Below are positions 2,980 through 44,404 of a stretch of DNA of 64,000 bases, one piece after another. The stretch comes from Vibrio ponticus. GTDB lineage: Bacteria; Pseudomonadota; Gammaproteobacteria; Enterobacterales; Vibrionaceae. The notes beneath the pieces are model-generated. The model searched no databases and was not told where the DNA came from. It saw only the letters and a program-made list of their open reading frames with translations. Both the position numbers and the translations under genes were made by a program. Positions within the stretch are counted from its first letter, which is position 1, and each line of letters starts with the position of its first letter. Location of the stretch: the NCBI RefSeq assembly GCF_009938225.1, contig NZ_AP019658.1:744001-808000 (forward strand). The letters run 5' to 3'.

Positions 2980-5900
2980 CTAAACGAGACTCTCAATTTT
3001 ATCGATAAGGTTTTTCTTACGCACAGGCTTGGCTAAATACGCATCCATACCGGAGTCAAAACAGCGCTGAATATCATCATCAATAACGCTTGCGGTTAAT
3101 GCAATAATGGGCGTTTTATCCAGTCCCTGCTTTTGTTCCAACCTGCGGATTTCTCTCGTGGCTTCAAACCCATCTTTTACTGGCATCATACAATCCATAA
3201 GGATGAGGTGATAACCATTTTCTTTGCGATACATATCGACGGCGATCTGACCATTCTCGGCGATATCGTACTGATAGCCAGCTTTTTCGAGAATGAGGGA
3301 TGCAACTTTCTGATTAACAGAATTATCTTCAACCAGCAGAATTTTGCTGCTGTCTTGTGATATCGATTCTTTGGTTGTTTCTGCTTCAACTGGGTAGTTT
3401 TCGATATCAGCACTAGGAAGCGCAGGTTCTACTTGTGTGTATTGACAAACTTTGATGATTAATGCGTCCCCTTTGAAGGGTTTTGCCAAATAATCATTCA
3501 TACCCACGCTATAACATTGTTCTATGTCCTCATCGAGAATACTTGCCGTTAGCGCAATAATAGGGACTTGTTTAACCGCGCTACTTTCAAACTGACGAAT
3601 TTGCTTTGTGGCTTCGAATCCGTCCATGATCGGCATCATGCAATCCATCAGGATCAACGAGTATTTCTCTGGATGAGAGGTATACATTTGTACCGCTTCC
3701 GCGCCGTCATGCGCGACTTCATAATTGATACCAGCATTGGATAAGTGCAACCCGGTAATTTTCCTATTCACCGCGTTATCCTCAACCACGAGCACGGATT
3801 TTTCTGCACTGTTTTCAGCGAGTAGTTCGCCTTCAACTTGAACTACATCAATGGTTCGAGAAGTAACGGCATTGAAGAGACGCTGACCATATAAAGGCTG
3901 AGTAACGACTGAGTGGATCTCGGAAGAAAATTCAAACGGCACACTATTGAACAAGCGAGCAATACACACATGCTTTTGTTGCGCGATGGCTTTGAGGTCT
4001 TGCTGACAAGACATTAAATTGATGGTCTCGGACTCAACGAATATAACCACGTGATCAGCTCGTGGTGACTTCTCGTTATATTCATCCAGTGAAGAATAGT
4101 TACCGATGATTGTTTGACGATAGAACTCTAGCTCATGAATTAAATCGGATTTAGATTCAACTGCTGTGCCGATCAGGCAAATATTATTTTGTTTGCTCGT
4201 GTCCTGATAGTTTTGCTGTTCAACAGCGACTTGTAGCGTGAACGAGAAGCGACTGCCAATGCCTTTTTCAGACTTTAGTTGGATTGCTCCTCCCATCATT
4301 TCAACCAGTTGAGTGCTGATTGCTAGACCCAGACCTGTACCGCCAAACTTTCTTGTGGTTGATTCATCTTCCTGAGCGAATGGCTTAAATATTTGCTCTT
4401 GCTTTTCCGCATCGATACCGACACCTGAATCAGTGACGGCAAACTCTAAATTAACTTGTTCACTCGTCGTTCCCTTAACCGCTACCGAGATTTCCACATA
4501 TCCATTGCTGGTGAACTTGACTGCATTGGACATAAAGTTCATTAGCGTTTGGCGAAGGCGATGATCGTCTACCAATACTTTATGTGGGATATTTGATTCG
4601 ATGGATACACGCAGTTGCAGACCTTTCTCTTTAATCTTAGGCGCAACAATTGCTGCGACGTCATACACTACCTCACGAATGGATGTAGAGTGCTGGTTAA
4701 TCAGTAACATGCCAGACTCAATTTTGGAGAAGTCGAGAATGTCATTGATTAAGCTAAGTAAGAGTTGGGATGAAGTTTCGATAGTATCGACATAGTCTCG
4801 TTGTGAAGCCGTGAGTTGTGTTTCAGACAACACTTCAGAAATACCGATCACACCATTTAACGGAGTGCGAATTTCATGTGACATATTGGCGAGAAAGCTG
4901 CTTTTGGCGCGATTTGCCCGAACCGCGGCATCTTTGGCATTCTCCGCATCGACTTTGGCTTGGGTTAAGCGCTCATTAGCGAGTTTACGTTCTATCGTAA
5001 TGCGCTCGACTTCACGCGCGAAGCGACCTAATTCGTCTTTGCCGTGAATTGATTTACTCAGTTGAATAAGATTCTTGTCGTCATCACACTTCAAATACTC
5101 GACGACCATATTGAGGTTTTGAGTAATGTGTCTTGTCAGTTTAAAGGCAACAAAGATGACCAGTGCGGTCAATAGAGAGACCAGACCAATATAGAGATTT
5201 CGCTCAAAATGAGCTTGTTGGATAGATTGCTCAATGCTGCTGGTAATCTGAAATTCAATCGTATCACCAACGTTGTTCAATAGGTCTAAGCGAGTATTCA
5301 TCGCTTCAATACCCAGTTGGGTCATTTGGCTATTGAGTGAGGCGAGGTTACTCAAGCTCGCTAAGTTTTGTCGAAATTTTTGGCTGTGCGAAAAAGCGGA
5401 ATTACTAAACGCCTGCATCATCAATTTGACTTGCTCAGGGTTAGCATTCAGATTAACAAATCGTTCTATGAAAAGTTGTTGTCTTTCGATAAGGGTGTTT
5501 ATTTGGTCACGTATATCTTGGTCGTACTCGCCATAGTTTTGGAAAGCGCTGATCAGAATATTACTTAATTGATTTTCTTCATTAGCCCAAAATACCATCC
5601 ATTCAAGTTGGATTAGTGCTTGAATGTTACTACGAACATCCTCAGGTAAGTTGGCAAACTCTTTCTTTTCGAGACTAAGCAATAATTGATGGTAGAGCTC
5701 AGCCTGCCACTCGAAGTTATCGAGCCTATCCTCGATACTCAGATCTTGTAAGAGCTGTTGTTTGGTCGAAATAAGGTTTTGCACTATATCTCTGACATCA
5801 TCTGCTGACTGTGAAGGATATACTTTGGGTATCAGAAGATTAAGAGACGAAGCAGAAAGCGATGTGTCAGATGGCGAGTAGACGCTAGATACCCCGCGAA

Positions 5901-6063
5901 GAAAGCTGGTAGTGTCTGTCGCCTCTATGAGTGATTTTGTACTGTTGTTGATAGTTTTAATCTGTAACATTGCAAGATAAATCAGCAATGCAATAGGCAA
6001 CAACACCAAGCCATAAAGCTTGTATTTAAGCGATATGTTCTGCCAAGAACTCCAATTTATCAT
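2980..6063 (-). CDS. Hybrid sensor histidine kinase with two receiver domains
   Basis: About 1027 residues. A membrane segment near residues 15-35 is followed by a long, mostly helical periplasmic sensor region (about 40-285), possibly NIT-like. A second membrane segment lies around 290-310, then a HAMP-like linker. The HisKA domain has [10 protein letters not shown] with phospho-accepting His396. An HATPase domain follows ([15 protein letters not shown]). Two receiver domains near the C-terminus each contain LMDCMMP with the acceptor aspartate. There is no Hpt domain, so the phosphate must pass to a separate Hpt protein or the receivers act as sinks. The start is the ATG at 6063; the upstream TTG at 6084 is less likely. 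It is first in an operon with a binding protein (16 bases on) and a porin. Confidence 0.85.
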
Positions 6064-6365
6064 TATTAAATATATCCAAACCAAGCCAACTAATATGAAA
6101 AGTGTAGAACAGCCATTGGTTTAGTCTAGTGTAACAAAGTGATCTAAATATGATTTTTTGACAATGTGAGATCTGGCTCCTAATGAGTAAAGGCGATGTT
6201 GCACATTGGAAAAAGAGCGAAATGTGTGACCAAAAATATTTACACATTCTAGAAAGGCTGAATCTGAGGCTCATCAGCAGTGATGAATAATGCCAACTAC
6301 ACTTAGAGGTAATGCTCGATAGAGCAGGTTGTGTATGTAACTAGGCTTAGATTCAAGGAGTTGTT

Positions 6366-6605
6366 ATGTTAGGAGAAGATCATTCCCTTTTAAATGAGTT
6401 TCCAGAGCATGGAGAAGTTATTCATAAATTAAGTCAAAGTGACTTATCTTTTGCTAATGATGTAAAAGAATACAATTCGCTAGATAAAGAGATACGGGTT
6501 CTCGAGTTGCGAGGCGCGCCGATTGATGATGCAGAAATGAATAAACTGAAACACAGTAGGGCAGTTCTGAAAGACTCACTCTACCAGCGAATAACTCCTA
6601 AATAG
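6366..6605 (+). CDS. YdcH-family small coiled-coil protein (DUF465)
   Basis: 79 residues, highly charged and helical, with the DUF465/YdcH pattern: MLGEDHSLLNEFPEH near the start, then FANDVKEYNSLDKEI and LKDSLYQRI at the end. Members of this family are small cytoplasmic proteins of unknown function. It is a single gene with AGGAG close before the ATG, and it converges on transketolase with a shared terminator. A short hairpin (TGCTCGATAGAGCA, near 6312-6325) lies in its leader. Confidence 0.85.
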   Translation: MLGEDHSLLNEFPEHGEVIHKLSQSDLSFANDVKEYNSLDKEIRVLELRGAPIDDAEMNKLKHSRAVLKDSLYQRITPK

Positions 6606-6628
6606 TAACTAGGTTTCCATCAATACAA

Positions 6629-6656
6629 AAACACCCGCGAGATGCGGGTGTTTTAT
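6629..6656. terminator. Bidirectional terminator between ydcH and tkt
   Basis: A ten-base perfect stem AAACACCCGC / GCGGGTGTTT around a five-base loop, with A-rich and T-rich flanks on both sides. It suits termination of both converging genes. Confidence 0.9.
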
Positions 6657-6670
6657 TTATATGAGACTAA

Positions 6671-8662
6671 TTACGCGAGTAATTCTTCGGCGGTGTTGAT
6701 AACGTTTTCTACTGTGAAGCCAAACATTTCAAACAGCTGGTCAGCTGGTGCTGACTCACCAAAGGTAGTCATACCGATGATGCGACCATCAAAGCCAACG
6801 TACTTGTACCAGAAGTCAGCAATACCGGCTTCAATTGCGATACGTGCAGTCACATCTGATGGCAGTACTGACTCACGGTAAGCGGCGTCTTGCTTATCAA
6901 ATGCATCAGTAGCAGGCATAGATACAACGCGTACTGCTTTACCCGCTGCTGTTAGCTCTTCTGCCGCTTTCACTGCAAGTTCAACTTCAGAACCTGTTGC
7001 GATTAGGATTAGCTCAGGTTTGCCTGCGCAATCTTTAAGGATGTAACCACCCTTAGCGATGTCAGCCACTTGCTCAGCAGAGCGTGGTTGCTGCGCTAGG
7101 TTTTGACGTGAGAAGATCAGTGCTGATGGACCATCTTTACGCTCAATCGCCAGTTTCCAAGCTACTGCTGACTCAACTTGGTCACATGGACGCCATGTGC
7201 TCATGTTTGGTGTTAGACGTAGAGACGCGATTTGCTCAACCGGTTGGTGAGTTGGACCGTCTTCGCCAAGACCGATAGAGTCGTGCGTGTAAACTTGGAT
7301 GTTCTGAATTTTCATCAGAGCAGCCATGCGCATTGCGTTACGTGCGTATTCCATGAACATTAGGAAGGTTGCACCGTAAGGAACAAAACCGCCGTGTAGC
7401 GCGATACCGTTCATGATCGCGGTCATACCGAATTCACGTACGCCGTAGTGAATGTAGTTACCAGAGAAGTCGTTTGCTTCTAGAGACTTAGAACCCGACC
7501 ACATGGTTAGGTTAGAAGGCGCTAGGTCAGCAGAGCCGCCCATAAATTCTGGTAGCATTTGACCAAATGCTTCTAGTGCATTTTGCGATGCTTTACGTGA
7601 TGCGATATTCGCAGGGTTTGCTTGAAGGTCAGCAATGATTTGGCTTGCTTTCTCTTCCCACTCAGCAGGCAGTTCGCCGTTGATACGACGCTTAAGCTCT
7701 GCCGCTTCTGCAGGGTATGCCGCTGCGTACGCGTCAAATTTTGCGTTCCAAGCCGCTTCTTTGTCAGCGCCTGCTGCTTTTGCATCCCATTGCGAGTATA
7801 CGTCAGCTGGGATTTCAAATGCTGGGTGTTCCCAACCTAGGAATTCGCGCGCTGCTGCGATTTCTTCTGCGCCTAGTGGTGCACCGTGGCAGTCGTGTGA
7901 ACCTGATTTGTTTGGCGAGCCAAAACCGATGATGGTTTTAGTACAGATTAACGTTGGGCGTGGGTCTGCTTTCGCAGCGATGATTGCAGCATTGATCGCT
8001 TCTGCATCGTGACCATCAACCGCTGGGATTACGTGCCAGCCGTACGCTTCAAAGCGTTTCGGTGTATCATCTGAGAACCAACCTTCTACGTGACCATCGA
8101 TAGAGATACCGTTGTCATCCCAGAATGCGATTAGCTTACCAAGACCAAGTGTACCTGCTAGAGAACATGCCTCATGCGAGATACCTTCCATTAGACAGCC
8201 GTCACCCATGAACACGTAAGTATGGTGGTCAACAATGTCGTGACCTTCTTTATTGAACTGAGCAGCCAGTGCTTTTTCAGCCATTGCCATACCAACTGCG
8301 TTGGTGATGCCTTGACCTAGAGGACCCGTGGTTGTTTCGATACCTGGTGCGTAACCATACTCAGGGTGACCTGGCGTCTTAGAGTGCAATTGACGGAAGT
8401 TTTTCAGATCGTCAATAGATAGCTCGTAACCACTTAGGTGTAGTAGTGAGTAAATTAGCATTGAGCCGTGACCGTTAGACAGCACGAAACGGTCGCGATC
8501 AGCCCATTCTGGGTTTGCTGGGTTATGGTTTAGGTGAGAGCGCCAAAGAACTTCAGCGATGTCCGCCATACCCATAGGTGCGCCTGGGTGACCAGAGTTT
8601 GCTTGTTGTACACCGTCCATGCTTAGCGCACGGATTGCATTAGCTAAATGTTTACGATCCAT
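6671..8662 (-). CDS. tkt: Transketolase
   Basis: 663 residues, full length for bacterial transketolase, a thiamine-diphosphate enzyme moving two-carbon units between pentose phosphate and glycolytic sugars in the cytosol. Visible signatures are GHPGAPMG near residue 24 (with the active-site His25), the TPP/metal motif [13 protein letters not shown] around 155, and the transketolase motif GEDGPTHQP near 470. It lies 80 bases downstream of transaldolase on the same strand, matching the tal-tkt order on V. cholerae chromosome II. A hairpin in the gap may lower its expression relative to tal. Vibrios usually carry a second transketolase elsewhere; which paralogue this is cannot be judged here. 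Confidence 0.97.
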
Positions 8663-27810: not shown

Positions 27811-28287
27811 CTAGTCTGCTTTTGTGATGCTGCCGAGTTCTAGAACGGGTGCTACATCGATGTCTTCTGCATTCATCATTGCAGAGAGGCGCTGTACAGA
27901 AGAAAGCAATAGTGTTTGTTCCCAGTCATCTAAACGTTGGAACTTGTTGATAAAGCTCTGTTGCAGCGGCAGAGGAGCTTGCTCTAAGCGTTCACGTCCT
28001 TGCTCGGTCAGAACCGCATGAACTTTTCGTTTGTCAGTCTCACTGCGTTTACGCTCGATCAAGCCATTTTTCTGTAGTCTATCGAGAATGATAGTAGCGG
28101 TTGCTTGGCTCATGTTGGTGTGATTAGAAAGCTGTTTAATCGTGACTTCACCAAGTTCTCTTATCGATCTCATTAAGATAAGTTGAGGGGCAGTTAGCCC
28201 TGACTCTTTACTCAGTTTCTTTGAGTGTAAGTCGATTGCGCGGATTATTTGTCTTAACGACACTAGTACTTCTTCGTGCTTTTCCAA
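27811..28287 (-). CDS. cosR: CosR, MarR-type repressor of compatible-solute genes
   Basis: 158 residues with the MarR winged helix (about residues 30-115: LTAPQLILMRSI, TIKQLSNHTNMSQATATIILDRLQKNGLIERKRSETDKR). The N-terminus MEKHEEVLVSLRQIIRAIDLHSKKLSK is what I recognise in Vibrio CosR, the salinity-linked repressor of ectoine and glycine-betaine genes. In vibrios cosR is divergent from a BCCT betaine transporter gene. The same pair is present here but split by an IS. The start is TTG, with AAGGG seven bases upstream and no better start nearby. A strong terminator follows. Confidence 0.88.
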   Translation of the reverse strand: MEKHEEVLVSLRQIIRAIDLHSKKLSKESGLTAPQLILMRSIRELGEVTIKQLSNHTNMSQATATIILDRLQKNGLIERKRSETDKRKVHAVLTEQGRERLEQAPLPLQQSFINKFQRLDDWEQTLLLSSVQRLSAMMNAEDIDVAPVLELGSITKAD

Positions 28288-28617
28288 GATAAACCCTTAA
28301 AACGTCGCTACTTTTTGAAGAACATAACCTAAATTCATCATGAATAGAAGTGTAAACAGACAAAATTTACAGCCAATAATATCATTAGACTACAAAATAT
28401 AACCATCCCTTTTTATATAAGGGATTTGGCTAGGTAAAACCGTTTTTACACTAATATTATTGAGTTAACAGGTAAATGTGATGAATAAGTTTGCATAAAT
28501 TGGCATTTTTTACTGCAAAGCGTACAATATTAACTAATTGCTTAATAGGTAATTGTATCTCAAATCGTTTATAGCTCTAAGCGATAGGTCAAAGAGAAGT
28601 AAAACTAGAGAGATTCT
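28288..28617. other. cosR-opuD divergent regulatory region, cut off from opuD by an IS
   Basis: About 330 AT-rich bases that originally separated cosR from the BCCT gene and should hold both promoters and CosR sites. A seven-base hairpin, ATCCCTT / AAGGGAT, lies at 28405-28425; it lacks a U-tract and may be an operator or a remnant. Because of the IS, the promoter for the transporter now reads into the insertion. Confidence 0.5.
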
Positions 28618-28623
28618 ATGACT
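28618..28623 (+). pseudogene. opuD: Original start codon and codon 2 of the BCCT transporter gene
   Basis: ATG ACT sits directly left of the IS. Joined to the sequence right of the IS it restores MTKGIDKYSID, the expected start of Vibrio OpuD-type transporters. This fixes the insertion point at codon 2. Confidence 0.85.
28620..28623. repeat. Left copy of IS target duplication (GACT)
   Basis: GACT borders the left end of the IS and recurs at 30257-30260. The duplication may be 3 bases (ACT) with the IS ending in G, or 4 bases; both are within the range for IS3-family elements. Confidence 0.8.
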
Positions 28624-28662
28624 CGGCGTTTTTCAAGGTTGTTGTCATCATTCGCTTAGTTA

Positions 28663-29670
28663 TTAAGCGGCTTCTCTTTCTGGATTTAGATGAACCTCAC
28701 CAACGGGTTCACAGTTCCTAATTTTGCCTGACCAACGCGCAGGGTGTCGTTTTCTTGCTATCGACAATACATCAGAACGACGCCTTAAAATCTCGCTATC
28801 TTTACCACTGTGACGCTCTGATGGCGTAACGTAATTTAACTTACTGTGCTTGTGCTCGGTGTTGTACCAACGCACGAACGCCTCAACCCAACTACGACTT
28901 GCATCGAGTTGTTCAAAGCCTTTGTTTACCATGGGCATGTACTTCACTGTGCGGAACAGCGACTCAACATACGGGTTATCATCACTGACTCTCGGGCGAC
29001 TGTATGATGAAGTAATACCAAGCTCATCCATTTTCGCTCTGAACGTCAGTGACTTCATTGGCGCACCATTGTCCGAGTGAAGTACCAGTGACTGATTAAA
29101 GCACTGCTCGCGCATCAGCGTCCGCTGTAATAACTGTGATGCTAACTCACCGCATTCACATTCATAAACATCGTAACCAACGATTTTTCGGCTATAAATA
29201 TCTTCAATCACGTAGAGATAATAGTGCTGACCGCGAACCCTAGATGGCAAGTAAGTAATGTCCCATGTGTACACTTGATTGGGACCTGTTGCCGTATAAC
29301 TTGTTGGCTTAGCCTGCCTTTGTCGACTTCGCTGACGACCTCGGGGATGAAGTTGACCTTCCGCTTTCAAAACCCGATAGTAGCTCGACTCCGAAGCGAT
29401 ATACTCACCATTATCAAGCAACGTCGGAACAATTTGAGTTGGTGGTAAACTCGCGTATTCAGGGCGGTTGCACACCTCGATAATCGCATCACGTTCTTGC
29501 TGTGAGAGTTTGTTAGCAGGCGCAGGTCTGGTGCATGTCGGTCTTTTGTCTGCCCTTATTTCACCTTGCTGATACCAGCGTCGATACGTCCTCAAGTCGA
29601 TTTGAACCTCATGGCAAGCGTACTCCAATCGGCAACCACTTTGCTGAGCGTCGTGGATAAGAGTGACCAA
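28663..29670 (-). CDS. IS3-family transposase OrfB (DDE integrase)
   Basis: 335 residues as an open frame from a TTG; the same frame stays open upstream to about the end of orfA. It has an HTH_21-like segment (residues 50-105) and a retroviral-type integrase core. Catalytic residues visible are Asp in TWDITYL, Asp in LHSDNGAP and Glu in NPYVESLFRT. The catalytic domain is intact. In this family OrfB is made alone or as an OrfAB fusion by a -1 ribosomal frameshift. Here the fusion is blocked by the damage in orfA, so this copy may depend on transposase from another copy. Confidence 0.92.
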   Translation of the reverse strand: MVTLIHDAQQSGCRLEYACHEVQIDLRTYRRWYQQGEIRADKRPTCTRPAPANKLSQQERDAIIEVCNRPEYASLPPTQIVPTLLDNGEYIASESSYYRVLKAEGQLHPRGRQRSRQRQAKPTSYTATGPNQVYTWDITYLPSRVRGQHYYLYVIEDIYSRKIVGYDVYECECGELASQLLQRTLMREQCFNQSLVLHSDNGAPMKSLTFRAKMDELGITSSYSRPRVSDDNPYVESLFRTVKYMPMVNKGFEQLDASRSWVEAFVRWYNTEHKHSKLNYVTPSERHSGKDSEILRRRSDVLSIARKRHPARWSGKIRNCEPVGEVHLNPEREAA

Positions 29671-29693
29671 GTAGTGCCTTTCATCGGTTGAGG

Positions 29694-30192
29694 TTAATCT
29701 TCCTCTGGCTCTTCCCCGTAAAAGGCTCTCAGCTTTTTCGCAGAACCAAGAGTGCTGCGGTTTCAGCTAACGCTTTTTCTTTAAAGCGTAACTCTTTTTC
29801 AGCTCTTTAATTTCAAGCTTGTCAGCTTTAGCTTGTTTCTTGGCTTCAGCCTCACGCTCTTTAACAGACATAAACCCTTGCATACACTCACTTCGCCAAT
29901 CTTGCACTTGTTCAGGGAACAAGCCTTTCTCGCGACAATACTGACTGAGTTCATTCTCCGTCATCGAGTAGGTTTCAGCGACAATGGCGAGTTTAGTTTG
30001 AGCAGACCACTGCTCTGATGAAGTATTACTATTTGGCACAGCGGCTCCTGAACGTCTAAGTTGCTGCCGCCAATGATACAGGGTTGCTGGGCTAATACCT
30101 TCCTCTTTTGCTACTTGGCTTACAGACATTGAATAAGGAGGTAGTAGCTTCTTCAATATGGCTTCTTTTCTTTCTGTTGGAATGCGATTCAA
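29694..30192 (-). pseudogene. IS3-family OrfA, frameshifted
   Basis: The open frame runs 141 codons from a TTG at 30192 to a TAG at 29767. It contains a helix-turn-helix (SVSQVAKEEGISPATLYHWR) and a second one around residues 60-100. It ends LKKSYALKKKR, whereas family members continue like KELRRKEKALAETAALLVLRKK. Adding one A in the run at 29795-29799 restores ELRFKEKALAETAALLVLRK. One more A at 29734-29738 restores KKLRAFYGEEPEED and an A6G slippery site. Two separate single-base losses in A-runs therefore inactivate OrfA. The family comparison is from memory. Confidence 0.75.
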
Positions 30193-30256
30193 AACTCACT
30201 CATTACCACCCAAACTGGTTAAATTTTAACAGTGACAACAATCCTGCCAGAGGGGG

Positions 30257-30260
30257 GACT
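30257..30260. repeat. Right copy of IS target duplication (GACT)
   Basis: Matches the left copy at 28620-28623. It is preceded by the G-rich IS end and followed by AAAGGAATTGAT of the transporter gene. Confidence 0.8.
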
Positions 30261-31832
30261 AAAGGAATTGATAAATACAGTATAGACAGTACTGACTATA
30301 CAATCGGTCAAGACAATGTACAGAAGTGGGGTTTTGACGTTCATAATCCGGTTTTCGGTATCAGTGCTGGCTTTATTGCGTTGTTTTTAATTGGCGCTCT
30401 TGTGCTTGATGCTCATACAGCTAAATCTGTGTTGGATGGTATTAAGTGGAGCATTATTGGTAGCTTCGACTGGCTGTTTATTTGGTCTGGCAACCTATTT
30501 GTGGTTTTCTGCTTGGGTCTGATTGTGAGCCCGATGGGTAAAATTCGATTAGGGGGCGAAGGCGCTACAGCAGATTATTCATTCATTTCATGGCTATCGA
30601 TGCTGTTTGCAGCTGGTATGGGTATTGGCTTGATGTTTTGGAGTGTAGCTGAACCGGTTGCTTACTATACCGGTTGGTATGAAACACCGCTTGGTGTGGA
30701 AGCTAACACTCCAGAAGCGGCAAGGCTTGCCATGGGTGCAACTATGTATCACTGGGGGCTTCACCCATGGGCAATCTATGGCGTGGTCGCACTTTCATTA
30801 GCATTCTTTGCCTACAATAAAGGTTTACCGCTTTCTATTCGCTCTATTTTCTACCCGTTGCTGGGGGATCGTGCTTGGGGTTGGGCTGGTCATATTGTGG
30901 ATATTTTGGCGGTACTAGCCACACTGTTTGGTTTGGCGACCTCTTTGGGATTGGGTGCGCAACAAGCGGCAAGTGGTATTCATCACGTATTTGGTGTTGA
31001 AGCAGGGCTTGGTCTGCAGATCGTGGTTATCACCGTAGTGACATTACTCGCTGTTGTGTCGGTTATTCGGGGCATCGACGGTGGTGTGAAGGTCATTAGT
31101 AACATCAATATGATTGTTGCGTTCCTTCTGCTGATTTTGGTTGCTTTGATTGGTTGGGCGGTTGCGCTTGGTAATATTCCAACCACATTCATGGCTTATA
31201 TCGAAAACCTTATCCCTTTAAGTAACCCACATGGTCGAACTGATGAGGCGTGGTTCCAAGGTTGGACAGTGTTCTATTGGGCTTGGTGGATCTCATGGTC
31301 ACCATTCGTGGGCATGTTTATTGCGCGAGTTTCCAGAGGTAGAACGGTACGCGAATTTATTACGGCAGTACTGATTGTCCCAACCTCGGTGACTTTGATT
31401 TGGATGTCGGTGTTCGGTGGACTGGCGATTGATCAAGTGGTTAATAATGTCGGTCAGTTGGGCAGTAAAGGGTTAACCGATGTATCACTGGCAATGTTCG
31501 AGATGTTTGATGTGTTACCTATGGGGAATATCTTGTCGATTATTGCCGTTGTGCTTGTGCTGGTGTTTTTTATCACCTCATCGGACTCTGGCTCACTTGT
31601 TATCGATAGTATTACTGCTGGTGGTAAAGTCGATGCCCCTGTGCTTCAACGTGTCTTCTGGGCATTTATGGAAGGTGCAATTGCAGTCGCGTTGTTATGG
31701 ATTGGTGGTACGGAGGCGATTCAGGCGCTACAAGCTGGGGCGATATCAACTGCGCTACCTTTCACCATTGTTCTACTGCTTATGTGCGTCAGCTTAATTA
31801 TGGGTATGCGCACCGAGAAATACAGCAAGTAG
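30258..31832 (+). pseudogene. opuD: BCCT-family betaine/choline transporter, start removed by IS
   Basis: The remaining 524 codons encode a nearly complete BCCT transporter with about twelve membrane segments. They include the aromatic-rich betaine-site segment FYWAWWISWSPFVGMFIARVSRGRT, the glycine-rich stretch SMLFAAGMGIGLMFWSVAEP, and ITSSDSGSLVIDS. BCCT carriers import betaine, choline or carnitine under osmotic stress. The native ATG is 1.6 kb away across an IS3 element. The frame is open leftward into IS sequence for 50 codons, to a TTG at 30108, but no start there has a proper ribosome site. It is divergent from cosR, as in other vibrios. Loss of function or very low expression is the likely outcome. 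Confidence 0.85.
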
Positions 31833-38521: not shown

Positions 38522-38593
38522 TTTATTGCACGCTTGGAAAATAAACGTTGATCTCAATTCTAGTTTATTTATACTGCACATGCGTGTAATAAA
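38522..38593. promoter_or_regulatory. RND operon promoter bracketed by inverted repeat arms
   Basis: On the plus strand TTGATC (38548-38553) and TATACT (38570-38575) are 16 bases apart. TTTATTGCACGC (38522-38533) and GCGTGTAATAAA (38582-38593) are near-perfect inverted copies either side of the promoter. They are candidate sites for the divergent TetR protein. Confidence 0.45.
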
Positions 38594-38611
38594 ACCGAAT
38601 GAGTTACAGAG

Positions 38612-39688
38612 ATGAATAACAGGAAGTTATACAATAGAGGTTGGGTGAGTTCACTTGCGATCAGTAGCATCAGTTTGTTCCTTGTTGGATGTAATCAAGC
38701 CAATTCGGAAGAGACGAATGTGGTAATAAAACCGGTAAAACTTTTTGAGGTACCCGATTTCGCATCTAACAAAGCCGATTGGTTTATCGCCGAAATTGAT
38801 GCCACAGAGCGTGCCGCTTTGTCGTTTCAAGTGTCTGGTGAAATTAGGCGAGTTTTAGTCAAAATGGGGCAACAAGTAGAGAAAGGTCAAATCCTGGCGG
38901 AACTCGATCCTACGGATTACCAACTTGCAGTCGATGCCAGAAGTGCAGAGTATGAATTAGCGAAAACAGCCTATGATCGCGCGAGTGCGCTTTATGAAAA
39001 GCAGTTGATCAGTACCGATACCTACGACCAACACGAGAGTCAATTTAAAGTATCAAAGGCGGCGTTAGAACAAGCAAAAACGGATTTGGCTTACACAAAG
39101 ATTAAAGCACCTTTTGAAGGCGTTATTTCACTTTCTCATGTCAAAGAACACCAAGTGATTGCGGCTAGTCAACCGGTTGTTAATTTAATCAACAACGATG
39201 TGATGGACGTGGTATTTAGCCTTCCAGTGAGTTACGTCGATAGATATGGCTTAGCGCATATCTCAGACGCAAAACTCTCGGTAGCAATGGATATCAATAA
39301 AGCGTTCTCAATCCCCGCTAAGTTTAAAGAGATTTCGACCCGACCAGATAGTGAAATCAACAGTTACCGCGCTCGAGTAACGATTGAGCGACCTGAGTTT
39401 ATGAACTTATTTTCCGGTATGACAGGTCATGTCCAGTTACCAAATAATCAATCTCATCAAGGAGTTACTTTGGTAGAGACCGCCTGGATATCTAAAGAGA
39501 ATGGTCAAGGAGAGCTTTTCAAGTTTATTCCTGAGACACAATTGATTGAAAGTGTTCAAGTGTCGCTTAATGACCAAGGTGAGGTGATCAGTGGTATCGA
39601 GAGCGGTGATTTTATTGTTGAAACAGGCGTATCTCAGTTAACAGAAGGTCAGCAGGTTAAAGCGTGGGTTAAAGAGGCAGGGATCTAG
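38612..39688 (+). CDS. RND efflux adaptor lipoprotein 1
   Basis: 358 residues. The lipoprotein signal ends at LFLVGC (Cys27). The membrane-fusion order is visible: ALSFQVSGEIRRVLVKMGQQVEKGQIL, a coiled-coil hairpin at about 105-155, and IKAPFEGVISLSHV. It is the first of two adaptors encoded before one RND pump, an arrangement like VexIJK of V. cholerae. Two adaptors may form mixed assemblies. One base separates its TAG from the next ATG. Confidence 0.9.
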   Translation: MNNRKLYNRGWVSSLAISSISLFLVGCNQANSEETNVVIKPVKLFEVPDFASNKADWFIAEIDATERAALSFQVSGEIRRVLVKMGQQVEKGQILAELDPTDYQLAVDARSAEYELAKTAYDRASALYEKQLISTDTYDQHESQFKVSKAALEQAKTDLAYTKIKAPFEGVISLSHVKEHQVIAASQPVVNLINNDVMDVVFSLPVSYVDRYGLAHISDAKLSVAMDINKAFSIPAKFKEISTRPDSEINSYRARVTIERPEFMNLFSGMTGHVQLPNNQSHQGVTLVETAWISKENGQGELFKFIPETQLIESVQVSLNDQGEVISGIESGDFIVETGVSQLTEGQQVKAWVKEAGI

Positions 39689-39689
39689 C

Positions 39690-40745
39690 ATGATATTACG
39701 CAAATATTCATCACTTTTTCTTACCGTAGCAGCCTTATCGGGATGTGGAATAGAAACCGAACACCGTCCAAAGCCAAGTTTGACCGTTGATGTGTTGACG
39801 TTAGATGCTCCTATTTCGGAACAACATCGAGTGTTTAACGGGGTGGTAGAGGCTGCGGATTTAACCCCACTTGCGTTTCGCATTGAAGGGGAGTTAACCC
39901 AGATTTTAGTTAAAGAAGGTGATGCGATTGCATCAGGACAGCCTATTGCACTGTTGAATAATCAAAAGTATCAACAAAATTTGAATAATGCTCAAGCTCG
40001 CTTCGATCTTGCCTCTAAGCAACTAGAGCGGGCAAAAGATCTCTATCGCCAAGCGATGATTTCTAAAGCGCAGTTTGATGAGTTGTCAGCGACATTCAAG
40101 TTGGCGAAAGCGCAACGTGATACCGCTAAAACAATGCTCTCTTATACGCGGCTTAATGCCCCGTTTGATGGTGTTATTTCCTCTGTAGAAAAACAAAGTC
40201 ATGAGAGTGTGACTCCGGGAGAGGTGGTGGTGACTTTGTACCGACCGGATCAGTTGCACGTTAAGATCAATATTTCTGACACTATCCTCGCCTTAATGGA
40301 CCCGACAGGGAAAAATAGAACCTACCAACCATATGTCGCATTTGCTGGCAGTCAAAAACGTCATCCGATGCAGTACTTAGAACATACCACCGAACTTCAT
40401 CCTCAAAGTCGCTCTTATGAGTTTTGGCTATCAAGAGAGCAGCTTGCAACCCCCGTATTACCTGGGTCAAGTGCGATTGTTTATGTGGATATGACAGCTG
40501 CAGGTATGGGAACTCATCAAGGTTATCTCATTCCAATGACTGCCTTGGATGCTGGTCAGAAGCAAGGGCAGTTCTATATTTGGAAGCTGCAAGATGAGCG
40601 AGCATATCGATATCCGATTACCGTGGATGAAATTTTAGGTAATGGAGCGATTGTCTCTTTGGGTGTTGATCAAGGTGATGTGATTATTAGTTCGAATATT
40701 CGCAAGCTAAGAGAAGGTATGGAAATCAAAGGAGTTCAGCTGTGA
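39690..40745 (+). CDS. RND efflux adaptor lipoprotein 2
   Basis: 351 residues. The lipobox is AALSGC (Cys19). Barrel-sandwich segments are LAFRIEGELTQILVKEGDAI and LNAPFDGVISSVEKQS, with a coiled coil between. It is related to adaptor 1 but clearly divergent, so this is not a recent duplication. Its TGA overlaps the GTG start of the pump gene (GTGA at 40742-40745), indicating coupled translation. Confidence 0.9.
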   Translation: MILRKYSSLFLTVAALSGCGIETEHRPKPSLTVDVLTLDAPISEQHRVFNGVVEAADLTPLAFRIEGELTQILVKEGDAIASGQPIALLNNQKYQQNLNNAQARFDLASKQLERAKDLYRQAMISKAQFDELSATFKLAKAQRDTAKTMLSYTRLNAPFDGVISSVEKQSHESVTPGEVVVTLYRPDQLHVKINISDTILALMDPTGKNRTYQPYVAFAGSQKRHPMQYLEHTTELHPQSRSYEFWLSREQLATPVLPGSSAIVYVDMTAAGMGTHQGYLIPMTALDAGQKQGQFYIWKLQDERAYRYPITVDEILGNGAIVSLGVDQGDVIISSNIRKLREGMEIKGVQL

Positions 40746-43700
40746 ATATTGCAGAGTATTCGATTAAAAATAAAGTGATCAGTTGGCTGTTCTTAGTCAT
40801 CTTAACCGTTGGTGGCGTCACCTCTTTTCTGGATTTGGGGCGACTAGAAGATCCTGCATTCACGATTAAAGAAGCGATGATTATTTCGAGCTACCCCGGA
40901 GCGACCTCACAAGAGGTAGAGGAGGAGCTGACTTACCCACTCGAACAAGAAATCCGCAAATTACCCTATATCGATAAGATTGTGTCAACGTCGTCCAATG
41001 GATTGTCGCAAATCATGGTTACCATGGAAATGACCTACGGTCCTGACGAGTTACCACAGATTTGGGATGAGATGCGCCGTAAGATTAATGACTTGCAACC
41101 TAAGCTACCAAGCGGTGTCAATTCAATCCAAATCATGGATGATTTCGGTGACGTATACGGCATTATGCTGATGCTCACTGGTGACGGTTATGATTACGTT
41201 GAACTAAAACGTTATGCTGATTATTTACGTCGTGATCTTGAACTCGTCGATGGCGTTGGCAAAGTATCCATTGCTGGTGAGCAACAAGAACAGTTGTTTG
41301 TCGAGGTCTCTCTAGAGCAGATGGCTGCGTTTAACCTCGATATGTCAACAGTTGTCGGTTTGTTAAGTCGACAAAATAGTATCCAATCATCGGGTGAGGT
41401 AATGGTTAATGGCGAGAACTTAGTTATTCGCCCGAGTGGGACCATGACCAGTGAACAACAACTGGAAGACCTAATTATCCATGGTCGTGATACTGGTAAT
41501 TTAATCCGCTTAAAAGATGTGGCAACGGTCTCTCGTGGCATACAAGAAAAGCCTGGCAACATTATTACTTACAATGGCGAACCGGCGATTAATTTAGCGA
41601 TTTCTTTTGCGTCGAGCGTCAACGTGGTCGAAGTGGGTAAGGCCTTAGAGGCGAAAATAGACGAGCTAGAGTCAATCAAACCCGCAGGTATTAATCTGCA
41701 CTATTTCTATAATCAGTCGGCTGAAGTTGATAAGTCAGTGTTTGATTTTGTGATTAGCTTGGTTGAAGCCGTTGCAATAGTCATTGTTGTCTTGCTATTT
41801 ACGATGGGAGTTCGTAGTGGGCTGATTATCGGTATCGTATTGCTGTTAACAGTATTTGGTACCTTCATTTTGATGAACCAGTTTGCGATAGAGCTACATC
41901 GAATATCTCTAGGTGCTTTGATTATCGCCTTGGGTATGCTGGTGGACAACGCGATTGTTGTGGTTGAAGGCATTTTGGTCGGGATGAAAAAAGGTCAAAC
42001 CAAATTGCAAGCTTCAAAGGATATCGTAAAACAAACGCAATGGCCGTTACTCGGCGCGACAATCATTGCTATCACTGCTTTTGCTCCAATTGGCTTGTCA
42101 GAAGACGCGACGGGCGAGTTTATGGGGTCGCTATTTTGGGTTCTTTGCTTCTCGTTATTTTTAAGTTGGATTACCGCGATAACCTTGACGCCTTTTCTTG
42201 CTGACTTGTTATTTAAAGATGAAAAACTTGATGATGGTGAGGAAGTTGCGGATCCATATAAAGGCGTATTATTCACGGTCTTTGGTGGAGTACTTACGTT
42301 TGCGCTGAGATTTAGATGGTTAACCATTGCCACTATGGTTGCGTTACTTGTTGCGGCAGTGGCTGGGTTTGGTATGGTGAAACAATCCTTCTTCCCGCCT
42401 TCAAATACGCCAATGTTTTATGTCGATCTCTGGATGCCTGAAGGTACGGATATCCGCCAAACGGTAAAACAAGTGAAACAAGTTGAACGCTTCATTCGTT
42501 CGAAAGACAATGTTGAGTTTGTGACATCTTCTACTGGTCAAGGTTTACAACGTTTTGCTCTAACTTATCAACCAGAAAAAAGCTACGAAGCGTACGCGCA
42601 ATTACAGATTCGGACGGTTGATCGTGAGTCAATGTTTGACGTGTTATATCAACTTGATCAAGAGCTTCCAAGTCAGTTCAATCAGGCGACATTTCAGATC
42701 AAGTTAATGGAGTTTGGACCTTCACCAGCATCGAAAATTGAGGCGCGAATCACGGGCTCAGATCCTCAAATATTGCGAGAGATCGCCACACAAGTTGAGG
42801 ACATACTGTTAACTGACCCTGGTGCACGTAACGTCCGTCATGATTGGCGTGAAAGAACCAAAGAAATTGTGCCGGTGTTTAATGAATCCAAGGCGCGCAG
42901 ATTAGGTATTTCTAAACAGGATCTGTCTGAAACATTGCAGATGGCATTTGGGGGGACACCCATTGGTCTGCTTCGTGATGGTACGCATATGTTACCGATA
43001 GTCGCCCGTCTTCCGGAACAAGAGCGCGTGGATTATGAATCACTTGCTAACGCTAAATTATGGAGCCCGACATTACAAATATACGTGCCATTAGAGCAAG
43101 TTATTGATGGTGTTGAATTGGCATGGCAAGAGCCTTTAATTCAACGCAGAGACAGAAAGCGCACGCTAACAGTACTGGCGGACCATGACGTGTTAGGTGA
43201 TGAAACGGCAGATGCACTATTCAAACGTGTGAAACCGCAGGTAGAACAGCTCGAATTACCTGAAGGTTACCGTATCTCTTGGGGAGGAGAATATGAATCC
43301 TCTAAAGAGGCACAAGAGGCGCTCTTTGGCTCTTTGCCTATGGGTTATTTACTGATGTTCATTATTACCATGCTCTTATTTAACTCATTCCGTAAGCCTT
43401 TCGTGATATGGATGACTGTGCCACTTTCTATCATTGGTGTAGCAATTGGTTTGCTGGCAACCAACATGCCGTTTAGCTTTACAGCATTCTTGGGGCTATT
43501 GAGCTTGAGTGGAATGATTTTGAAAAATGGCATTGTTCTGCTCGACCAAATTAACATTGAGTTGAGCTCAGGAAAACCTAAATACCAAGCGGTTTATGAC
43601 AGTGCTATATCAAGGGTAAGACCTGTGAGTATGGCAGCGATTACCACCATCCTGGGTATGTTACCTTTGGTATTTGATGCATTTTTTGGCTCAATGGCGA

Positions 43701-43801
43701 TTACCATCATGGCGGGTCTCGGTTTTGCAACGATACTGACACTGATCGTCGTCCCCGTTTTGTTCGCTATCGTCTATCGAATAGACCCTGTCACTGCATA
43801 A
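40742..43801 (+). CDS. RND efflux pump, two-adaptor type
   Basis: 1019 residues, slightly shorter than AcrB-type pumps. The start MNIAEYSIKNKVISWLFLVI and GRLEDPAFTIKEAMI are typical of the VexK/TriC-like branch. TM4 has LGMLVDNAIVVVEGILVGM, with one Asp and an Asn where AcrB has paired Asp. LSLSGMILKNGIVLLDQI supplies the TM10 lysine. The start is GTG, overlapping the upstream stop. Exported compounds may include detergents, bile acids or biocides; this is inferred from the branch. Confidence 0.92.
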   Translation: MNIAEYSIKNKVISWLFLVILTVGGVTSFLDLGRLEDPAFTIKEAMIISSYPGATSQEVEEELTYPLEQEIRKLPYIDKIVSTSSNGLSQIMVTMEMTYGPDELPQIWDEMRRKINDLQPKLPSGVNSIQIMDDFGDVYGIMLMLTGDGYDYVELKRYADYLRRDLELVDGVGKVSIAGEQQEQLFVEVSLEQMAAFNLDMSTVVGLLSRQNSIQSSGEVMVNGENLVIRPSGTMTSEQQLEDLIIHGRDTGNLIRLKDVATVSRGIQEKPGNIITYNGEPAINLAISFASSVNVVEVGKALEAKIDELESIKPAGINLHYFYNQSAEVDKSVFDFVISLVEAVAIVIVVLLFTMGVRSGLIIGIVLLLTVFGTFILMNQFAIELHRISLGALIIALGMLVDNAIVVVEGILVGMKKGQTKLQASKDIVKQTQWPLLGATIIAITAFAPIGLSEDATGEFMGSLFWVLCFSLFLSWITAITLTPFLADLLFKDEKLDDGEEVADPYKGVLFTVFGGVLTFALRFRWLTIATMVALLVAAVAGFGMVKQSFFPPSNTPMFYVDLWMPEGTDIRQTVKQVKQVERFIRSKDNVEFVTSSTGQGLQRFALTYQPEKSYEAYAQLQIRTVDRESMFDVLYQLDQELPSQFNQATFQIKLMEFGPSPASKIEARITGSDPQILREIATQVEDILLTDPGARNVRHDWRERTKEIVPVFNESKARRLGISKQDLSETLQMAFGGTPIGLLRDGTHMLPIVARLPEQERVDYESLANAKLWSPTLQIYVPLEQVIDGVELAWQEPLIQRRDRKRTLTVLADHDVLGDETADALFKRVKPQVEQLELPEGYRISWGGEYESSKEAQEALFGSLPMGYLLMFIITMLLFNSFRKPFVIWMTVPLSIIGVAIGLLATNMPFSFTAFLGLLSLSGMILKNGIVLLDQINIELSSGKPKYQAVYDSAISRVRPVSMAAITTILGMLPLVFDAFFGSMAITIMAGLGFATILTLIVVPVLFAIVYRIDPVTA

Positions 43802-43821
43802 AAGGGATATTCGACTTTGCC

Positions 43822-43849
43822 AAACCCAGCCTACCTGCTGGGTTTTTTT
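43822..43849 (+). terminator. Terminator after the two-adaptor RND operon
   Basis: AAACCCAGC and GCTGGGTTT pair around CTACCT, followed by a T run. Confidence 0.92.
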
Positions 43850-44404
43850 ATCTATTATTTTTCTTTTCCCATATTTTCTCAGCACAGCAATGTCAAAACG
43901 AACAAATAGTGAAATCAGCAAATAAACCAGGTATTTATCTAATGCTATAAATATGATGAATTTGTCATTAAGCGCTGTTATTTACGCTGCACCAAAACTG
44001 ATAGCAATATCAGTAGTTGCATTGTATTGGTGCAATAGCAGTGAATTAATCTATGTATTGATGAAATAAAATAGTTTCAGATTAATCTTATTTAAAACAA
44101 TCACTTACAATTCTGGTCTTAGCAGTGATTGGCTTGGTTGTTCTTTGAAATCAATAAGTTGCATAAATTTAACCTTTGAGTAACATTTCATGTTAATGAG
44201 ACTTGGCGCAAATTTGCACACATTGATTGTAATTAATATTTGAAGTGTAACAATTGCCTATTAGTTTTAAATATAAAGAAGTTGATAAAAATATATCGAC
44301 ATAAAAAGTTTTTAAAGATTACGTGTAAGTATATTTCACAGACCTAATATGGTTTTGGAAAATATATGCGTTTTTTTAACTTGCTGTACGACATGGAGTC
44401 ATAA
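43850..44404. other. Long AT-rich region upstream of the pha operon
   Basis: About 550 bases without a credible gene. It must contain the phaB operon promoter. A sigma-54-like string near 44204 has the wrong GG-GC spacing. I see no clear operator or hairpin. GGAG lies just before the phaB ATG. Confidence 0.5.

Follow-up and report, generated by a model that had tools for sequence, protein, structure and literature searches.

An IS3-family insertion sequence appears to have jumped recently into the start of a cosR-linked BCCT transporter gene, removing the expression of one osmolyte transporter, and we put the probability of this reading at about 75%. The insertion was found in a 64,000-nucleotide stretch of DNA, the whole of which is referred to here as the window and which belongs to contig C2 (1.53 Mb); the genome comprises 4.8 Mb in three contigs. 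The insertion allele is real and well defined and most likely recent, and it represents an ordinary kind of event.

The insertion and the unoccupied site in relatives

Alignment of the four full copies of the element in this genome fixed the ends of the window copy at positions 28624 and 30256 (1,633 bp, transposase on the minus strand). The element is flanked by a 4-bp target-site duplication, GACT, the left copy of which (28620 to 28623) was assigned by reading the junction and by copy alignment, and the right copy (30257 to 30260) by the same two means and by comparison with G189, the nearest relative found. On the left side, the sequence leading up to the element is TCT ATG ACT, with the ATG at 28618 to 28620, and on the right side the transporter gene resumes from 30258 as ACT AAA GGA ATT. 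Since the duplicated GACT takes in the G of the native ATG, the placement of the insertion between codons 2 and 3, as proposed in the initial annotation, is exact. The interval given there, 28618 to 30260, corresponds to the element plus ATG ACT plus the second GACT, and the 1.6-kb separation that it described between the native start and the body of the BCCT gene is accounted for by the 1,633-bp element. The orphaned start, consisting of codons 1 and 2 (ATG ACT, 28618 to 28623, plus strand), now opens a frame of 13 residues that ends within the element.

A comparison of the locus in sister strains had been suggested in the same annotation. Among the relatives compared here, G189, G119, and G065 do not have the IS at this site. 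G189 aligns without a gap over 2,384 bases across the insertion site; in this genome, window positions 28623 and 30257 meet with a 4-base overlap, and all 83 of the left-flank bases shown in the comparison are identical. The same 4-base overlap, meaning an unoccupied site, was found in G119 and G065. A search of 196 genus genomes detected matches to the element, often partial, in 57 (own genome included) and none in G189, G119, or G065.

The wider genus set contained 227 genomes, one per species, of which 224 had a DNA match to the BCCT gene and 193 had a match to the cosR stretch. Neighbor pairing could be followed in 123 genomes (own included) among the matches listed, which comprised 148 BCCT rows and 150 cosR rows, and in 84 of these (own included) the cosR-like and BCCT matches shared a contig and were no more than 3 kb apart. 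The gap between the two query matches was 1,633 bp in the window, compared to 499 bp or less in the other 83 neighbor-pair genomes.

Two side observations came from these comparisons. In 39 of the 123 paired Vibrio genomes, the cosR-like and BCCT matches were not neighbors, being on different contigs in 38 cases and 76 kb apart in 1; a relocated cosR and a different MarR paralogue are candidate readings of these unlinked matches. Elsewhere in the window, the segment from 38577 to 44092, which holds consecutive plus-strand open reading frames (ORFs) of 358, 351, and 1,019 amino acids, has no counterpart in the compared stretch of G189, where its flanks are ∼570 bases apart.

The element and its copies

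In IS3-family elements, orfA and orfB overlap in two frames at an A-rich slippery site, the terminal inverted repeats usually start with TG, and the target duplication is 3 to 5 bp long. Both transposase genes of the window copy are on the minus strand. The product of orfB (28663 to 29670, TTG start as listed), which contains the integrase core, scored 194.8 bits against the NCBIfam transpos_IS3 model (NF033516; cut-off of 160) and also matched rve and rve_3, consistent with the family originally assigned. The product of orfA (29767 to 30192) matched HTH_Tnp_1 with 61.1 bits and by itself stayed below the NF033516 cut-off (43.3 bits). A 4-bp duplication, within the IS3 range, was present at three of the four full copies, namely, the window copy, L002 (TAAT), and L003 (GGTC), and the copy comparison showed no target duplication at L004. 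The ends of the element are imperfectly inverted, and their outermost bases are CGGCG and GGGGG, not TG...CA.

The three other full copies (L002, L003, and L004) are identical to each other within the element, and the overlapping orfA and orfB of the IS3 type are seen in L003 and, equally, in L002 and L004. In the window copy this arrangement has been mutated away: orfA is shortened by a frameshift, the orfA-orfB overlap region, which we take to be the slippery site, is changed, and orfB contains a changed block. Two frame changes put orfA and orfB into one frame with a stop between them. None of these variant forms was found in the three other copies of this genome or in 21 aligned related copies. 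As judged from its sequence, the window copy is unlikely to specify a working transposase; intact copies are present elsewhere in the genome. The initial annotation was right about the family of the element but left out that this copy is broken and that the transporter frame opens into it.

Observations were also made at other sites of the element in this genome. A relic with an internal deletion, 96 to 97% identical, is present at L005/L006 (G000:C1:3097317-3097746). At L193 (G000:C1:780000-792000), a full copy at ∼5143 to 6780 truncates a DpdH-type gene (PADLOC, 1,064 bits, matched to 979 of 1,071) of a Dpd-type DNA-modification cluster, and a DpdJ-type gene then follows. At L192 (G000:C2:1040000-1053000), a short frame that weakly matches AAA_23 (22.9 bits, below the cut-off) terminates at a copy at ∼5857 to 7494, and PADLOC candidate PDC-M01A/B genes, a SMEK-domain gene, and a phage-type integrase are nearby. 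No target duplication is visible at this copy, which hints at a rearrangement.

The transporter gene and its regulator

From codon 2 on, the BCCT gene consists of 524 codons and a stop (30258 to 31832, plus strand), and 521 of the 524 residues are the same as in G189, in agreement with the earlier view that the rest of the gene is intact. The BCCT domain (PF02028) is nearly full length, with 580.6 bits over profile positions 1 to 484 of 485. The protein passed the cut-off of the BCCT subfamily TIGR00842 (456.2 bits versus 407.55) and scored below that of the NCBIfam betaine_BCCT equivalog NF047988 (508.7 bits versus 650). Because the betaine equivalog cut-off was missed and only the broader TIGR00842 was passed, the substrate name rests on position. 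As described in PMC12093977, the betaine-binding BCCT pocket is made up of W-W-Y in TM4 and W-W-W in TM8, and all six residues can be seen by eye in the translation (HWGLHPWAIY and AWWISW) at the reported spacing.

There was no sign of coding decay. Compared to G189, the 524 codons show 115 synonymous and 5 nonsynonymous steps, and the resulting dN/dS of 0.011 is lower than that of six neighboring genes (0.016 to 0.102). At each of the three positions that differ from G189, the residue of the window protein also occurs in homologues, and this protein shows no change of its own where at least 90% of the other rows agree (61 rows, five of which repeat a genome). An old insertion followed by decay of the gene was rejected, since only 3 residue differences were found, compared to ∼235 nonsynonymous changes expected if unconstrained; this expectation takes the dS of 0.394 to G189, gives half of it to the window branch, and leaves the whole branch unconstrained. 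The three differences bound any inactive time to ∼1 to 3% of the window branch. The absence of decay would fit a recent insertion and a gene still in use equally well.

The sequence MTKGIDKYSID, which had been predicted as the transporter start once the element and one GACT copy are removed, was found to open the gene at 8 loci from Vibrio or Vibrionales (L012 to L017, L034, and L036) and in G189, G065, G223, and G078, the four of five relatives that were listed by the motif search. This conservation rules out a native start elsewhere downstream. More distant homologues have other N termini.

The regulator has been left whole, as was first described. The cosR-type MarR gene (27811 to 28287, minus strand, TTG start as listed; Pfam MarR, 58.7 bits) is intact and agrees with that of G189 at 158 of 158 residues, with no nonsynonymous change. 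The genome was also searched for a second CosR; no close match was found, the next one being 29% identical. By its family, its position beside the BCCT gene, and the lack of a close second copy, it is a candidate CosR. This linkage is not universal. A CosR match was found in the surrounding stretch of only 7 of 80 BCCT loci: at L013 (79% identical), for example, CosR is divergent from the BCCT gene as in the window, and at L015, L016, and L036 it is on the same strand. The surrounding stretches of L012, L014, L017, and L034 (82 to 90% BCCT identity) contain no CosR match. The stretch from Vibrio sp. THAF191d has no features annotated and was left out of the comparison. Because the linkage is not universal and the betaine equivalog cut-off was missed, "bccT3" is used here as a name by position, and orthology is unproven.

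Expression across the junctions

The proposed course of events is as follows. The element transposed, recently on this reading, into the beginning of the BCCT gene next to cosR (of the bccT3 type by its position), duplicating GACT. A candidate native transporter promoter (TTGGCA, 17 nt, TACAAT; 28500 to 28528, plus strand; consensus match only) now reads into the element, and the native ribosome site is also on the cosR side. All that the native expression signals (promoter, ribosome site, and ATG) would then drive is a leader of 13 residues, terminated inside the element. The rest of the gene, 524 codons, would have neither a start of its own nor a convincing promoter, which argues that the transporter is absent or made only in traces. 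With cosR and its gap to the element whole, regulation of the other CosR targets should stay unchanged. Much of the loss is probably made up for by other osmolyte carriers and by synthesis pathways. Five BCCT genes are present in the genome, i.e., four besides the interrupted one, as well as three ProV-family matches above the cut-off, one ectoine synthase, and one BetA. Because these remain, uptake need not be strongly affected, and losing a single carrier may be compensated to a large extent and have little visible effect. The strain-specific change in betaine or choline uptake put forward in the initial annotation is thus a fair prediction, not a finding.

It is unlikely, in our view, that the transporter is still made in useful amounts, through read-through or a weak internal start and then initiation at an ATT or an in-element codon to give an altered N terminus. 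The transporter frame is indeed open from inside the element (30096 to 31832, plus strand, first TTG at 30108, 574 amino acids as listed among the ORFs), back to a stop at 30093, leaving 54 in-frame codons before the junction. Among these 54, usual start codons are represented only by three TTGs, whose ribosome sites (−1.5 kcal/mol each) are at background level (217 sampled TTGs and TTGs only, mean of −1.6, standard deviation [SD] of 2.4; native ATG, −3.5), and the first usual in-frame start past the junction, a TTG at residue 43, looks to be within the first membrane segment. The G-rich end of the element, AGAGGGGGG, scored −11.6 kcal/mol when paired with the anti-Shine-Dalgarno sequence and is followed, at a distance of 9 nt, by an in-frame ATT at 30267 (native residue 5). 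A score of −6.9 kcal/mol was obtained for an ATA that lies in frame within the element, and both values are to be read against a baseline of TTGs only. However, ATT is a rare start codon, and an overlapping TTG in a different frame soon reaches a stop. Continued production would also agree with the undecayed coding sequence (dN/dS of 0.011) and with the variation of several homologues in the N terminus before the DKYSI motif. As to transcription, two plus-strand promoter-like matches are present within the element (29353 to 29381 and 29861 to 29888), but the promoter scan found no plus-strand site between 29889 and 30500 and no outward promoter at the element end facing the transporter, and a terminator-like site on the plus strand is located just inside the left end. 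The 8 promoter-like matches in 28280 to 30500 compare with a shuffled mean of 3.9 (SD, 2.3) and the 4 terminator-like matches with 2.0 (SD, 1.7), so that no single site of either kind is strong evidence. The RNA structure at the right junction was also considered and is ordinary (z of −0.51). We regard as very improbable the more specific proposal that the G-rich terminus is a portable ribosome-binding site, with initiation at the ATT (residue 5) and the transporter used under read-through control; if true, this would account for the absent decay.

There is also little likelihood that the main effect is on cosR, with the transposase promoter reading toward it and raising or disturbing its expression. 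The transposase is on the same strand as cosR and is directed toward it, away from the transporter gene, and a promoter-like site of the transposase with an extended −10, in the right end adjoining the transporter, likewise points away from that gene. By transposase direction, IRL faces the transporter and IRR faces cosR, and an outward −35 in IRR is described for IS911, another IS3-family element, in PMC9330008. Nevertheless, the 336-bp stretch (by coordinates) between cosR and the element is kept whole and contains a minus-strand terminator-like site (28425 to 28405), and no minus-strand promoter-like site was found at the left end in the promoter scan. Still less probable is an artifact of repeat misassembly or laboratory passage as the source of the junction or of the odd copy differences. 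Private differences, partly in T-runs, are confined to the window copy whereas the three other copies agree, and repeats are difficult to polish; the flanks, however, are unique, the duplication is exact on both sides, and the cosR-BCCT region is gap-free against G189. In addition, a manual count placed 51 of the 57 indels that distinguish the aligned window segments from G189 in sequence not covered by the main ORFs (two of these hit a shorter overlapping ORF), which means that the differences of the element copy are probably real, a repeat-specific assembly error being possible.

Loss or near-loss of transporter expression caused by the insertion is therefore the reading we prefer. The allele would be a clean natural candidate knockout of a single osmolyte transporter with its own regulator adjoining and intact, and it could be used to test the share of the CosR-linked BCCT when other carriers remain. 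It also serves as a warning that automatic annotation may call the 574-amino-acid fused frame an intact gene. Apart from these two points, it is an everyday insertion mutation.

Several known systems can be compared with this locus. CosR is a MarR-family repressor of ect, bet, and bccT3 genes. As given in PMC7876524, the Vibrio parahaemolyticus CosR represses bccT3, betaine, choline, dimethylglycine, and proline are transported by BccT3, and the pair has consecutive locus tags, VP1906 and VP1905. The present locus resembles that pair in having a MarR regulator beside a BCCT gene, matches to which are neighbors in 83 other genus genomes as well; it differs in that the element separates the transporter gene from its start and in that the locus is on the 1.53-Mb contig C2. 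Among the matches listed, the titles and opening lines of abstracts on CosR, BCCT, or bccT3 in Vibrio and on IS-disrupted betaine transporters do not report this insertion. Within the plasmid collection, the element comes closest to a sequence in NC_009702.1, a plasmid of Vibrio vulnificus (94.2% across its full length). The window copy is like its Vibrio IS3-family relatives in full length, transposase family, and ends, and unlike them in its shortened orfA, changed slippery region, and private orfB block. Gene inactivation by an insertion sequence involves a target duplication and the displacement of promoter and start, and only two features of the right junction, an open frame and a G-rich element end, distinguish the present case from this general pattern.
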